Positions 26,437 through 33,560 of a DNA stretch of 33,560 bases are shown piece after piece. A program made the translations under genes and the position numbers. The stretch is taken from contig SBGU01000015.1 in NCBI GenBank assembly GCA_006226495.1, forward strand, positions 1 through 33,560, given 5' to 3'. Each line of letters begins with the position of its first letter. The first letter of the stretch is position 1. Below the pieces are notes generated by a model. It searched no databases. It worked only from the letters and a program-made list of their open reading frames with translations, and had not been told where the DNA came from. This DNA comes from Alphaproteobacteria bacterium (GTDB taxonomy: Bacteria > Pseudomonadota > Alphaproteobacteria > Sphingomonadales > Kordiimonadaceae).

Positions 26437-28281
26437 TCAGGACAGGAGGAAGCTGGATACCTGATAGGTCACGAACGAGGCGCCATAGGCCAGCACGAAC
26501 AGGTAGGCGATCATGAAGCTGGTCCATTTCCAGCCGCCGGTTTCGCGGCGGGTGACGGCGATGGTCGACAGGCACTGGGGTGCGAAGATGTACCAGGCCA
26601 GGAACGACAGCGCGGTCGGCAGCGACCAGGCGTTGCCCAGCATATGCTGCAGGCTGTTGGCCACCACATCTTCGTTGCCGGACAGGGAATAAACGGTACC
26701 AAGGGCGGCCACCGCCACTTCGCGCGCGGCCATGCCGGGCACCAGCGCCGCCGAAATTTCCCAGTTGAAGCCGATAGGCTCAAAAATCACAGCCAAGCCG
26801 CGGCCGATGATGCCGACCATGCTATAGAGGATCGCCGGGCCTTCCGCATCCGCGGGCGGGGCGGGGAAGGTGGACAGGACCCACAGTACCATGGTGGACA
26901 CAAGGATGATGGTGCCGGCGCGGCGCAGGAACACCCGCGCGCGCTCATAAAGTCCGATCAGCACATATTTCAGGTTCGGGGTCTGGTATTTGGGCAGTTC
27001 CAGCATGAAGGTCTGGGCCTTGCCCTTGACCACGGTGCGCTTCAGCACGGCGGCGACAATCAGCGCGGCGATGATACCGAACGCGAACATGGCGAACATC
27101 ACCAGCCCCTGCAGGCCGAAGAAACCCAGCACCTTGGTGTTCGGGATAAAGGCCGCGATAATGACGGTGTAAACTGGGATACGGGCCGAACAGGTCATCA
27201 GCGGCGCGATCAGGATCGTGGTCAGCCGGTCCTTTTCGTCCGAAATGGTGCGTGCGGCCATGATGCCGGGGATCGCGCAGGCAAAGCTGGACAAAAGCGG
27301 GATGAAGGCGCGGCCATTCAGGCCGACGGACGCCATCAGCCGGTCCATCAGGAAGGCGGCGCGCGCCATATAGCCGGACGATTCCAATAGGAGGATAAAG
27401 GCGAAAAGGATCAGGATCTGCGGCAGGAACACCACCACGGCCCCCACGCCGGCGACAATACCGTCATTGATGAAGCTCTTGATCCAGATATCGGGCAGGG
27501 CGGTGTCCACGAAACCCTGCAGGGCGACAAAACTGTCATCGATCATGTCGGCGGGCGCGGTGGCCCAACTGAACACGGCCTGGAACATCAGGAACAACAG
27601 GCTGAACAGGATGATGGGCCCTGCGACCGGGTGCAGCAGCACACGGTCCAGGACGCGGGTGGTCTTGTGGCCCAGGCCTTCGGACAGGGTCACCTTGTCG
27701 GCAATGCGGCGCGCCAGGGTCTGCAGGCTTTTGACGTCGGTGGCATATTCCACCGGGCTTGCCACCGGCACCTGAAGCAGGCCCAGCATCTGTTCCTTCA
27801 GTTCGGCCAGACCACGGCTGCGCACGGCCACGGTTTCGATCACCGGCATCACCAGCTTTTCCGACAGCGCCTTGCTGTCGATGCTGATTTTCTCGCGCGC
27901 GGCAAGGTCGGTCATATTCAGCGCAACCACCATGGGGATGCCAAGAGATTTGAGCTCGAGCACAAAACGCAGGTGTTGCGCCAGATTTGTTGCATCAACA
28001 ACACAAAGAATGGCGTCGGGTTTGCCTTCGGCGCTGTATTTTCCGCTGAGAACATCGCGGGTTACCGCCTCGTCGGGGCTCCTGGGTGTCAGGCTGTAGG
28101 TGCCCGGCAGGTCAATCAGCTCCACCCGGTTGTCGCCCAGCAAGGGACCAGCCCGCCGCTCCACCGTGGCGCCAGGATAGTTGGCGACCTTCTGCCTGAG
28201 GCCTGTCAGGGCGTTGAACAGGGCGGATTTGCCGCAGTTGGGGTTTCCAACGACGGCGACAAGGCTGGTCTTGGCGGTCAT
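26437..28281 (-). CDS. feoB: Ferrous iron transporter FeoB
   Basis: Inner-membrane Fe2+ importer with an N-terminal GTPase domain. G motifs are GNPNCGKS (12-19), DLPG (57-60) and NMTD (122-125). The membrane part contains the two Gate regions, with PCS-type segments such as SSFACAIPGIMAARTI and APQCLSTIAVTRRETG. At 614 residues it is shorter than the E. coli protein (773) but in the usual range for alphaproteobacterial FeoB. It overlaps feoA by 4 bp (ATGA), giving translational coupling. No FeoC was found. Upstream of feoA lies a Fur-box-like sequence, which fits iron-repressed expression. Confidence 0.95.
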   Translation of the reverse strand: MTAKTSLVAVVGNPNCGKSALFNALTGLRQKVANYPGATVERRAGPLLGDNRVELIDLPGTYSLTPRSPDEAVTRDVLSGKYSAEGKPDAILCVVDATNLAQHLRFVLELKSLGIPMVVALNMTDLAAREKISIDSKALSEKLVMPVIETVAVRSRGLAELKEQMLGLLQVPVASPVEYATDVKSLQTLARRIADKVTLSEGLGHKTTRVLDRVLLHPVAGPIILFSLLFLMFQAVFSWATAPADMIDDSFVALQGFVDTALPDIWIKSFINDGIVAGVGAVVVFLPQILILFAFILLLESSGYMARAAFLMDRLMASVGLNGRAFIPLLSSFACAIPGIMAARTISDEKDRLTTILIAPLMTCSARIPVYTVIIAAFIPNTKVLGFFGLQGLVMFAMFAFGIIAALIVAAVLKRTVVKGKAQTFMLELPKYQTPNLKYVLIGLYERARVFLRRAGTIILVSTMVLWVLSTFPAPPADAEGPAILYSMVGIIGRGLAVIFEPIGFNWEISAALVPGMAAREVAVAALGTVYSLSGNEDVVANSLQHMLGNAWSLPTALSFLAWYIFAPQCLSTIAVTRRETGGWKWTSFMIAYLFVLAYGASFVTYQVSSFLLS

Positions 28282-28544
28282 ATACTCGTTACCACAACGA
28301 TGTTGGCGTCCATGCGCCGCAAGGCGACGGTCATGCTGCCGACCCGCACCGCGATCGGGTCGCGGCCAAACGGGCTCTGGTGCAGTACTTCCACGATCAG
28401 ATTCTCGGCGAAACCCATTTCCCGCAGCCGGTCGGACAGGTCGGCGCCTTCACCATTCAGGTGGGCGGCGTCGAAATGTGTAATGCGGCCACGGTGACCG
28501 GGGCGCATCGTGCCAAGGCGGATGGAATCTGTAGTGTCGCGCAT
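28278..28544 (-). CDS. feoA: Ferrous iron transport accessory protein FeoA
   Basis: Small SH3-like cytoplasmic partner of FeoB, 88 residues. Typical pieces are MRPGHRGRITHF, LSDRLREMGF and the final VALRRMDANIVVV. The first 12 residues precede the usual FeoA start (the MRPG position), so a start at residue 13 is also possible; neither ATG has a strong Shine-Dalgarno. It is the first gene of the feoAB operon and overlaps feoB by 4 bp. A Fur-like 7-1-7 palindrome lies 28 bp upstream of the ATG. Confidence 0.92.
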   Translation of the reverse strand: MRDTTDSIRLGTMRPGHRGRITHFDAAHLNGEGADLSDRLREMGFAENLIVEVLHQSPFGRDPIAVRVGSMTVALRRMDANIVVVTSI

Positions 28545-29996: not shown

Positions 29997-30458
29997 TTAC
30001 GCGCCGATGGTGGCGCGCAGCATCCACTGGGCTTTTTCATGCACGGTCAGGCGGTCGGTCAGCAGGCCGGCGGTCACTTCGTCGCCGGCGTCACCGGCCT
30101 TGCCGATCAGCGGGCGGATGCGGTCGGCAATCTGCTTGTGCGCGGCATTCAGGCTTTTGACCATGTCTTCGGCGCTCGCATTCTCGTCGCCGTCGGCGAT
30201 GCTGCCCAGCTTGGCATAGGCGGCCAGGCCGGCCGGTGCCTTGCTGCCAAGGGTACGGATGCGCTCCGCGATCTCGTCAATGGCCATGGCCAGTTCGGTA
30301 TACTGGGTTTCGGTCAGGAGATGCACACCCTGGAACAGCGGGCCGGTCACGTTCCAGTGCACATTCTGGGTCAGCACATAAAGCTGCACACTTTCGGCCA
30401 GAACCGGTTTCAGGGCATCGGCGATTTGGGCTTGGGTTTTGCTATCGAGTGTTGTCAT
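29997..30458 (-). CDS. dps: Dps-family ferritin-like DNA-protection protein
   Basis: Dodecameric mini-ferritin of 153 residues that oxidises and stores iron using H2O2. The inter-subunit ferroxidase ligands are present: His34, His46, Glu50, Asp61 and Glu65 in HWNVTGPLFQGVHLLTE and AIDEIAERI. The N-terminal tail is short and not strongly basic, so DNA binding may be weak. A clear GGAGGACACC precedes the start. A leftward promoter with flanking direct repeats lies upstream. It is convergent with the PuuB-like oxidase; with feoAB nearby it makes a small iron/peroxide neighbourhood. Confidence 0.93.
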   Translation of the reverse strand: MTTLDSKTQAQIADALKPVLAESVQLYVLTQNVHWNVTGPLFQGVHLLTETQYTELAMAIDEIAERIRTLGSKAPAGLAAYAKLGSIADGDENASAEDMVKSLNAAHKQIADRIRPLIGKAGDAGDEVTAGLLTDRLTVHEKAQWMLRATIGA

Positions 30459-31496: not shown

Positions 31497-32809
<1,313 letters not shown>

Positions 32810-32819
32810 TCTCATACTT

Positions 32820-32992
32820 CCTGAAAATTACAGTGTTGCTGGACGTGGGCTCGGGCTTTCGAAACAGTACGGAAAGGGCACCGGCAGACGAATCGGCAAC
32901 AGCCCCTGCGCTGCTCCCCGGGGTTCGTTTGGGCGAGCGGACTTTTGCCGAATCGGTCCGTGTTGCGGCATCGTTGCGGTACCCCATAAACG
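32820..32992. other. GC-rich non-coding stretch with local inverted repeats
   Basis: No credible protein gene. Pairing segments include TCGGCAA (32893-32899) with TTGCCGA (32945-32951), CGGAC (32938-32942) with GTCCG (32956-32960), and CCCCGGGG at 32926-32933. GAATCGG occurs twice as a direct repeat (32890-32896; 32950-32956). This may be part of a structured leader or an RNA, but I do not recognise a known riboswitch. Confidence 0.3.
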
Positions 32993-33020
32993 AAAAAAAA
33001 GCGCCGGCGTTTCCGCGGCG
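32993..33020 (-). terminator. Leftward terminator at the end of the predicted non-coding RNA
   Basis: Read leftward: CGCCG (33020-33016), a loop region that can form GCG-GAAA-CGC, CGGCG (33006-33002), then eight Ts (33000-32993). No leftward protein gene lies to the right within the window, so it most simply ends the repeat-bearing transcript. Confidence 0.7.
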
Positions 33021-33066
33021 ATTCGTGTCTGGTTCCATCAGGGTAACCGGTTACTTGGGTTGGGAT

Positions 33067-33120
33067 GGCTTACCGGCAAGGTGAAGGTCGGCACCGTGCC
33101 GGTAAGCCAGGGGAGGGATA
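33067..33120. repeat. Structured direct repeat, copy 1
   Basis: A 54-bp block identical to 33300-33353. GGCTTACCGGC (33067-33077) pairs with GCCGGTAAGCC (33098-33108), with an inner GGTG/CACC helix, followed by AGGGGAGGGATA. Next to it, ACCC-TA-GGGACGC (33120-33132) pairs with GCGTCCC-GC-GGGT (33163-33175), enclosing GGGAAGG and CCTGGGAAGGG. Confidence 0.9.
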
Positions 33121-33299
33121 CCCTAGGGACGCCTGGGAAGGTCTGCTACCTGGGAAGGGTTAGCGTCCCGCGGGTTGTTCATCTGCCTTTGGCTGGCCCA
33201 AAATTGACCGTACCGCCGGCGTACAATGAACTAATCAAAATCAATTCATCAAACGCGCCCTCCTGTTTCCGCCGCGGGTTTTAAGCCCGGTTTGGGATT

Positions 33300-33353
33300 G
33301 GCTTACCGGCAAGGTGAAGGTCGGCACCGTGCCGGTAAGCCAGGGGAGGGATA
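33300..33353. repeat. Structured direct repeat, copy 2
   Basis: Identical 54-bp block, 233 bp from copy 1. The adjoining stem here is TGAACC-TT-GAACGC (33356-33369) with GCGTTC-TT-GGTTCA (33401-33414), again with a 2x2 internal loop and the same enclosed GGGAAGG and CCTGGGAAGGG. Two base pairs are compensated relative to copy 1 (G-C to A-T and C-G to A-T). Confidence 0.9.
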
Positions 33354-33490
33354 GGTGAACCTTGAACGCTTTGGGAAGGATATACCTGGGAAGGGATTTA
33401 GCGTTCTTGGTTCATTCAGTTCCTATTTCAGTCTCCTTTCCGTGTCGTCCGAGTATCTACAGACATCTTAGTATTTTGAACTTCGAAATT

Positions 33491-33519
33491 ATCTAACGTT
33501 TAAATCGTCTATGTTTCAA
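33491..33519 (-). promoter_or_regulatory. Leftward promoter for the repeat-bearing RNA
   Basis: Read leftward: TTGAAA (33514-33519), a 17-bp spacer, TTAGAT (33491-33496), inside the AT-rich last 140 bp of the window. A start near 33484 would produce an RNA that covers both repeat units and ends at the T8 terminator. Confidence 0.45.
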
Positions 33520-33560
33520 ATTTATTATTGCTGTATTTCGATTTCAAGAGAAAAGTGATT

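Follow-up and report, generated by a model that had tools for sequence, protein, structure and literature searches.

A hairpin array with C-rich motifs between torF and aspC in the genus Kordiimonas

Repeated hairpins with GGA strings characterize the CsrB and RsmZ RNAs, and the CcsR (cuckoo) RNAs carry C-rich anti-Shine-Dalgarno (anti-SD) loops, with CCUCCUCCC in the hairpin loops. In the published accounts drawn on here, the CcsR RNAs lie several in a row in the 3' untranslated region (UTR) of a protein gene, ccaF1, with a Rho-independent terminator at the end, and undergo processing by RNase E (PMC10253847, PMC8625941). NfeR1 (alpha-r14) of Sinorhizobium meliloti is described as having three hairpins in which ultraconserved CCUCCUCCC anti-SD loops are kept while the stems diverge; these redundant loops silence the mRNAs of ABC-transporter components and ntrB, and the RNA is tied to nitrogen control (PMC10746234, PMC3927594). 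The anti-SD logic of SisA-D is another to which the locus described below can be likened (PMC12559287).

Here we describe a hairpin array between torF and aspC that occurs across one genus and is unmatched by Rfam; the kind of RNA to which it probably belongs, anti-SD hairpin RNAs, is already known. No report of a torF-aspC RNA was found in the open-access literature searched. The array was analysed from the end of a 33,560-nucleotide stretch of alphaproteobacterial DNA (the window). The genus, here called Kordiimonas, comprises the window genome (G000), K. marina (G011), K. gwangyangensis (G010) and others (n = 19); some records named Kordiimonas belong to other genera in the grouping used, for example L040, which is genome G020.

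The original prediction for the window described two units, 233 bp apart, that share an identical 54-bp hairpin block and continue into a stem that differs in sequence while keeping its pairing. Both points hold, with the block measured at 55 nt (33066-33120 and 33299-33353, spacing 233). The next stem consists of ACCC/GGGT, a 2x2 internal loop TA/GC and GGGACGC/GCGTCCC in unit 1, and of AACC/GGTT, a 2x2 loop TT/TT and GAACGC/GCGTTC in unit 2 (Table 1). The two stems differ by two compensated pairs (C-G against A-T and G-C against A-T), and, as claimed, the loop strings GGGAAGG and CCTGGGAAGGG are constant between them. The long hairpin within the block has an inner stem GGUG/CACC and a loop CCGACCUU that lacks the CUUCCC motif. 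Both units fold better than 200 of 200 dinucleotide shuffles on either strand (minus-strand z -4.8 and -8.5; plus-strand z -3.6 and -5.4). When the second stems of K. marina and of the window (four in all) were aligned with MAFFT, their 5' arms came out misaligned, and this alignment was left out of the results. The family had gone unrecognized in the original prediction, and an Rfam 15 search of the window and 14 related loci likewise gave no match above the gathering threshold; a CRISPR-DR20 match at 32942-32969 was set aside as chance (17.8 bits against a gathering value of 42, E 1.1). No tRNA or tmRNA was found in the window.

Table 1. Features of the array and its surroundings, in window coordinates
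Feature	Position	Strand	Basis
aspC, aspartate transaminase, downstream of the array and co-directional with it	31500..32699	-	NF004769 as best model; synteny
Putative Rho-independent terminator: hairpin 33002-33020 and U8 (A8 on the plus strand, 32993-33000)	32993..33020	-	Sequence, folding
Unit 1 long hairpin (GGCUUACCGGC...GCCGGUAAGCC)	33066..33109	-	Identical-block comparison and folding; corresponding hairpins covary across 16 distinct sequences
Unit 1 C-rich linker AUCCCUCCCC (minus-strand reading)	33110..33119	-	Sequence, motif enrichment
Unit 1 second stem-loop, 2x2 internal loop, ACCCUUCCCAGG and ACCUUCCCAG in the loop	33120..33175	-	Sequence, folding
Unit 2 long hairpin, identical in sequence to that of unit 1	33299..33342	-	Block comparison, folding
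Unit 2 C-rich linker AUCCCUCCCC	33343..33352	-	Sequence, motif enrichment
Unit 2 second stem-loop, 2x2 internal loop, AUCCCUUCCCAGG and AUCCUUCCCA in the loop	33356..33414	-	Sequence, folding
Candidate internal promoter of the sigma-70 type, within AT-rich DNA that precedes the array	33519..33547	-	Weak, 9/12 match to consensus

The last base of the window is the end of contig C15, which truncates the array on its right side. At the very end of contig C38 the long hairpin occurs a third time, both arms showing a T-A to A-T exchange, so that the originally proposed two-copy unit is not borne out. This copy follows closely on the stop of a gene for a porin of the TorF family (TIGR02001, E 1e-42), beyond which lies uvrB (named by eye). 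The assembly break therefore probably falls inside the array, and C38 and C15 very probably flank a single gap within it. In relatives the gene order is uvrB, torF, array, aspC, with torF, the array and aspC running in the same direction. The window's aspC scores 576 bits against NF004769, under the model cut-off of 617, and its product shares 86% identity with the K. marina protein and 87% with that of Pseudokordiimonas caeni, a member of the same family but another genus. Elsewhere in the window, feoB- and feoA-like genes (26437-28544) and a Dps-like ferritin gene (29997-30458) were noted by eye from their translations.

We read the torF-aspC intervals across the genus and found the array in 16 of the 19 genomes (G000, G002, G004-G007 and G009-G018), as tandem hairpins behind torF in 14 and behind a torF remnant in two. 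G008 carries just one hairpin, which has CCUCCCC in its loop; the array was not found in the G003 interval, nor, in G001, where torF and aspC lie apart, behind torF or before aspC. The 560 nt upstream of aspC contain no array in ten other genomes of the family (G019-G028). In three of these (G021, G023 and G028) torF adjoins aspC with an ordinary terminator-like hairpin between them; for the other seven the comparison covers the aspC-upstream side. Two genus genomes, G012 and G016, have more than one torF-like gene (L127, L128, L133, L134; two copies read per genome), and the array accompanies only the copy adjoining aspC.

A covariance model of the long hairpin, trained on 16 sequences from genus genomes, gave matches at E < 1e-3 in 12 of the 19 genus genomes, all at the torF-aspC locus and expected by construction, because the model was built from those genomes; under strict filters G010, G012 and G017, which contributed hairpins to the model, go undetected, as does G016, which has the same hairpin as G012. 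Outside the genus it matched none of 40 genomes at this threshold (best E 0.032). Two weaker matches, at G002 C6:1789744 (E 0.011) and G018 C2:290771 (E 0.115), were treated as chance; the former corresponds to the reverse strand of a GGGGAGAGA start site (see below) of an AMP-binding enzyme gene and the latter resembles coding sequence by eye. The window array had no match in plasmid and phage collections. Plasmid matches to the G005 interval (query 225-401) were rejected as array copies: they correspond to the aspC end of the query, because those of them that have a listed feature are aminotransferase genes.

The hairpins bear the marks of selection for pairing. Among 16 distinct sequences of the long hairpin, 99.4% of cells pair, a figure that partly follows from construction because the hairpins were picked as hairpins. 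Changes on both sides affect 6 of its 10 pairs, a number reached in 1 of 500 shuffles; 22 cells are changed on both sides (shuffles, 5.8), and covariation scores 0.526 (shuffles, 0.241), with none of 500 shuffles reaching either value. For the second hairpin (8 sequences from 8 genomes), 5 of 7 pairs are changed on both sides, and 7 of 500 shuffles do as well; its further pair types number 6, under the shuffle mean of 7.4. The central claim of the original prediction, a selected RNA structure, is thus upheld by an array that extends across the genus, with changing stems, constant C-rich motifs and compensatory changes. We regard the structure, conservation and strand of the array as well supported.

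The C-rich motifs, which are for the most part unpaired, are concentrated on one strand. C(T/C)TCCC or CTCTCC occurs 67 times on the torF-sense strand of 19 interval sequences, against 10.7 expected from shuffles, and once on the opposite strand, against 3.1 expected. These sequences represent 18 genomes, all of the genus but G001; G000 contributes two pieces, and G003 and G008 are among the 18. The remainder of the window has 16 such motifs per 65.4 kb of strand. The version of the motif follows lineage, the window's lineage having CUUCCC and CCUCCCC, and G002, G005, G013, G018, G009, G014, G015 and G017 having CUCUCUCCCC or close forms. By a measure of enclosing stems, 31 of the 67 motifs are significant at P <= 0.05 against flank shuffles (3.35 expected) and 17 at P <= 0.005; in the window, the second stems of both units hold such significantly enclosed motifs. 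A strict measure of apical loops (closed by at least 7 pairs) was not convincing, with 12 of 67 motifs against 7.8 expected and a shuffle maximum of 14. In the predicted fold many motifs lie in linkers or in weak inner pairs, and the long hairpin's own loop is free of the motif in the window, G007, G010 and G012.

We assign the array RNA to the minus strand of the window because T runs, the strand bias of the motifs and the direction of torF and aspC all point to it, in agreement with the leftward transcription originally proposed. T runs directly follow the last hairpin in G005, G013 and G002 (TTTCTGTTTTTTT; TTTTCTTTT), shorter ones are seen in G018, G009 and G015, and the remaining genomes have hardly any. 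The T8 terminator proposed for the window fared less evenly: the tract is real and a hairpin (-10.9 kcal/mol) precedes it, but this hairpin does not stand out from shuffles (z -0.68; 47 of 200 do as well), and a terminator scan of the window listed none. The proposal that the array has a leftward promoter of its own was not substantiated, the candidate site in the window being one of 2 against a shuffle mean of 0.6; the well conserved element is instead a sigma-54 promoter, upstream of torF and outside the window.

The consensus of sigma-54 promoters is TGGCAYN5TTGCW. Sixteen of the 19 genus genomes have it ahead of torF or of the torF remnant, as do the three outgroups examined, all from related genera, and G012 and G016 have it with one mismatch (TGGCACACCCCATGCA); it was not found upstream of torF in G001, a copy that lies elsewhere. 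Six loci of 4.5-9.2 kb, together 87 kb of strand, contain the strict pattern 6 times, always immediately ahead of the torF start or, in the case of L038, ahead of the remnant ORF; it is absent from the window. TIGR02001 genes often lie near nitrogen-assimilation genes, which would fit sigma-54 control. In K. marina we observed a separate strong hairpin directly behind torF, followed before the array by an AT-rich stretch with a sigma-70-like site seen by eye (L031, ~2605-2760). This layout suggests that the array is partly uncoupled from torF in that species, and in both K. marina and the window species an additional internal promoter might act from the AT-rich stretch before the array.

In two genomes, G002 and G013, no close torF was found, the best matches being 31%. 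At their decayed locus the sigma-54 element, an ORF of 67 or 78 codons and the array remain; the ORF shows traces of the torF 3' end and reads past the old stop, and the arrays keep both stems and motifs. The distance between the -12 element and the end of the last hairpin is 360 and 400 nt at these two loci, and the predicted sigma-54 transcript would measure roughly 350-400 nt. The survival of the array after decay of the torF frame is the strongest single argument, from sequence, that the array itself would be the product. A tree of aspC (660 nt) groups G002, G005, G013 and G018 (0.971) and does not separate one torF decay from two (0.327); its deeper parts are unreliable because G023 and G027, which belong to other genera, fall inside the genus. 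In four loci (L123, L124, L146 and L149) the torF stop is overlapped by a purine string resembling UAAGGAGG, after which comes UUUAAGUAUCUUCCC. This string could pair with the C-rich motifs, or could be a ribosome-binding site with no obvious start.

Pairing of the motifs with ribosome-binding sites would predict that the complement of CUCUCUCCCC lies ahead of start codons. The pattern GGGGAGAGA-N3-10-ATG has 9 matches in G005, 7 in G018 (6 distinct sites), 7 in G013 and 14 in G002, against 1, 0, 0 and 3, respectively, for GGAGAGGGA, a permuted SD of the same composition. G017 has 6 matches (5 sites) against 1 permuted. G009, G014 and G015, which have like loops (CUCUCCCC), show no excess at starts: 1, 2 and 1 matches against 1, 3 and 1 permuted, or 4 against 5 overall. 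The reversed pattern gives 0-1 in each of the eight loop-bearing genomes, and GGGGAGAGA-N3-10-ATG itself occurs 2-5 times in each of 11 other genus genomes and 1-7 times in 7 family genomes. The single permuted SD served as control in the eight loop-bearing genus genomes and in six without such loops (G000, G004, G007, G010, G011 and G012), where the counts are 22 for GGGGAGAGA and 25 for GGAGAGGGA. Counting distinct sites, the four genomes named first differ from these six at 36:4 against 22:25 (Fisher P = 2.5e-5, for a grouping chosen after the counts were seen), and all eight loop-bearing genomes at 45:10 against 22:25 (P = 3.2e-4); if the two double-ATG sites, one in G018 and one in G017, are counted twice, the ratios become 37:4 (P = 1.3e-5) and 47:10 (P = 1.6e-4).

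We read 30 loci from 41 GGGGAGAGA matches. Of the 25 distinct sites in the four genomes, 23 mark the beginning of an ORF with 98 codons or more, and at two of the 23 (L200 and L212) this frame continues far upstream of the site. Nineteen of the 23 were scanned, and their class counts stand without a genome-wide baseline for those classes: the transport proteins are four TonB-receptor plugs, three orthologous SBF symporters (in three of the four genomes), two MFS proteins and one SSF protein; the enzymes include three AMP-binding proteins, one acyl-CoA dehydrogenase and two alpha/beta hydrolases; and a Trp halogenase, a GST and a VTT protein occur once each. In the window's lineage, TGGGAAGG-N3-10-ATG occurs 13-27 times per genome against 3-7 for the reversed pattern, the sole control, with one G011 match falling within the array. 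Among 30 of these loci read, some are gene starts and many are not; the gene starts, called by eye, include TonB receptors (L225 and L243) and acyl-CoA synthetase-like (L244) and acyl-CoA dehydrogenase-like (L233) genes. An hfq gene is present in all 21 genomes tested, 13 of them in the genus.

From these observations we infer the expression and targets of the array RNA. The reading that we favour, and consider probable, is that of a sigma-54-driven small RNA (sRNA) from the 3' UTR of a porin mRNA, whose C-rich motifs would pair with the SDs of uptake and catabolic genes. The minus strand of the region would then be the 3' part of a structured regulatory RNA between torF and aspC. A co-transcript of torF and the array would be made under sigma-54 control and processed into a stable RNA that probably uses Hfq; the redundant C-rich motifs would act as anti-SD seeds, and the repressed mRNAs would be those of outer-membrane receptors, symporters and catabolic enzymes.

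A regulatory role in trans has to be weighed against purely local ones. The array might act only in cis, as a stabilizer or terminator of the torF mRNA 3' UTR or as a leader of aspC, with no trans targets, and its placement immediately after the torF stop and ahead of the co-directional aspC, its stable terminal hairpins, which are typical of 3' UTRs, and the ordinary terminator-like hairpin that occupies its place in Pseudokordiimonas would all suit such a role. However, array and motifs persist in the two species without a torF frame, repeated lineage-specific C-rich motifs are needless for a terminator, and the T runs after the hairpin in several species argue against an aspC leader there. 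We therefore consider a cis-only array unlikely, if worth keeping in mind. A DNA repeat (a REP, MITE or transposon end) or a chance pair of hairpins with no RNA function seems highly improbable. Identical 55-nt blocks, palindromic hairpins, two to three copies and a contig break are what such an element might present, but in the window genome strong copies occur only at the ends of C15 and C38, which amount to one locus, as they do with the covariance model; the array holds a corresponding position across the genus with compensatory changes, and plasmid and phage collections gave no match to it.

The C-rich motifs might instead bind a protein or a G-rich RNA rather than the SDs of mRNAs. Sponges typically carry many similar, redundant motifs within a single RNA, and a G/A-rich RNA, CrfA, and the C-rich SisA-D of Caulobacter are described as pairing mutually (PMC12559287). 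A plus-strand CsrA sponge was the first form of this idea, because the GGGAAGG strings resemble GGA hexaloops. However, the GGA-binding regulator that is known best, CsrA, would match the opposite strand, and its domain (PF02599) was found in none of 59 genomes by a search that finds it in 3 of 14 control genomes; this version was rejected, with T runs, motif bias and synteny favouring the minus strand. DUF1127, the partner of CcsR, was likewise found in none of the 21 genomes searched, 13 of them in the genus. Taken as a whole, a sponge appears to us quite unlikely.

A more far-reaching version of the favoured sRNA reading is tentative, and we would not expect it to hold in full. A riboregulator specific to the genus may have arisen from a sigma-54-driven porin mRNA; its C-rich seed would drift with the SDs of its regulon in each lineage, a lineage-specific anti-SD code, and in two species it would have outlived its host gene, so that an mRNA would have been caught in the course of becoming a regulatory RNA. 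sRNAs from 3' ends are common, and their step to independent genes is rarely seen; the family shows an apparent before-state (the Pseudokordiimonas porin with its ordinary terminator-like hairpin), a porin-plus-array state and a decayed-porin state. Because stems and C-rich motifs differ between lineages, the choice of targets can be tested by comparison alone.

Set against the described RNAs, the array resembles CsrB and RsmZ, with their repeated GGA-string hairpins, only when read on the plus strand; it differs from them in that no CsrA was found in the 59 genomes searched and in that T runs, motif bias and neighbouring genes indicate the other strand. It is like CcsR1-4 (the CIN1 locus of Rhodobacter sphaeroides and other alphaproteobacteria) in having tandem hairpins behind a protein gene, with a T run clear at the last hairpin in part of the genomes, and in its C-rich loops. 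However, the host gene is a torF porin (TIGR02001) rather than the DUF1127 gene ccaF1, the motifs are CUUCCC, CCUCCCC and CUCUCUCCCC rather than CCUCCUCCC, and the promoter element is of the sigma-54 type rather than one for RpoHI/RpoHII. With NfeR1 it shares diverging stems alongside which C-rich strings, here putatively anti-SD, are kept, but CCUCCUCCC is absent from all 19 interval sequences (18 genomes), the motif varies by lineage and the array is attached to torF. The alpha-R8 RNAs (SisA-D, MmgR) have one single-stranded UUUCCUCCCU core and lie mostly beside an FGase gene, whereas many motifs and the torF-aspC location mark the array, and the UUUCCUCCCU core is absent from all 19 interval sequences. 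As the defining features of CcsR, NfeR1 and alpha-R8 are thus lacking, we file the array as a putative anti-SD hairpin RNA outside those families. By analogy, it would work as CcsR, NfeR1 and SisA do. The locus also suggests that anti-SD hairpin arrays may arise repeatedly in alphaproteobacteria on different host genes.
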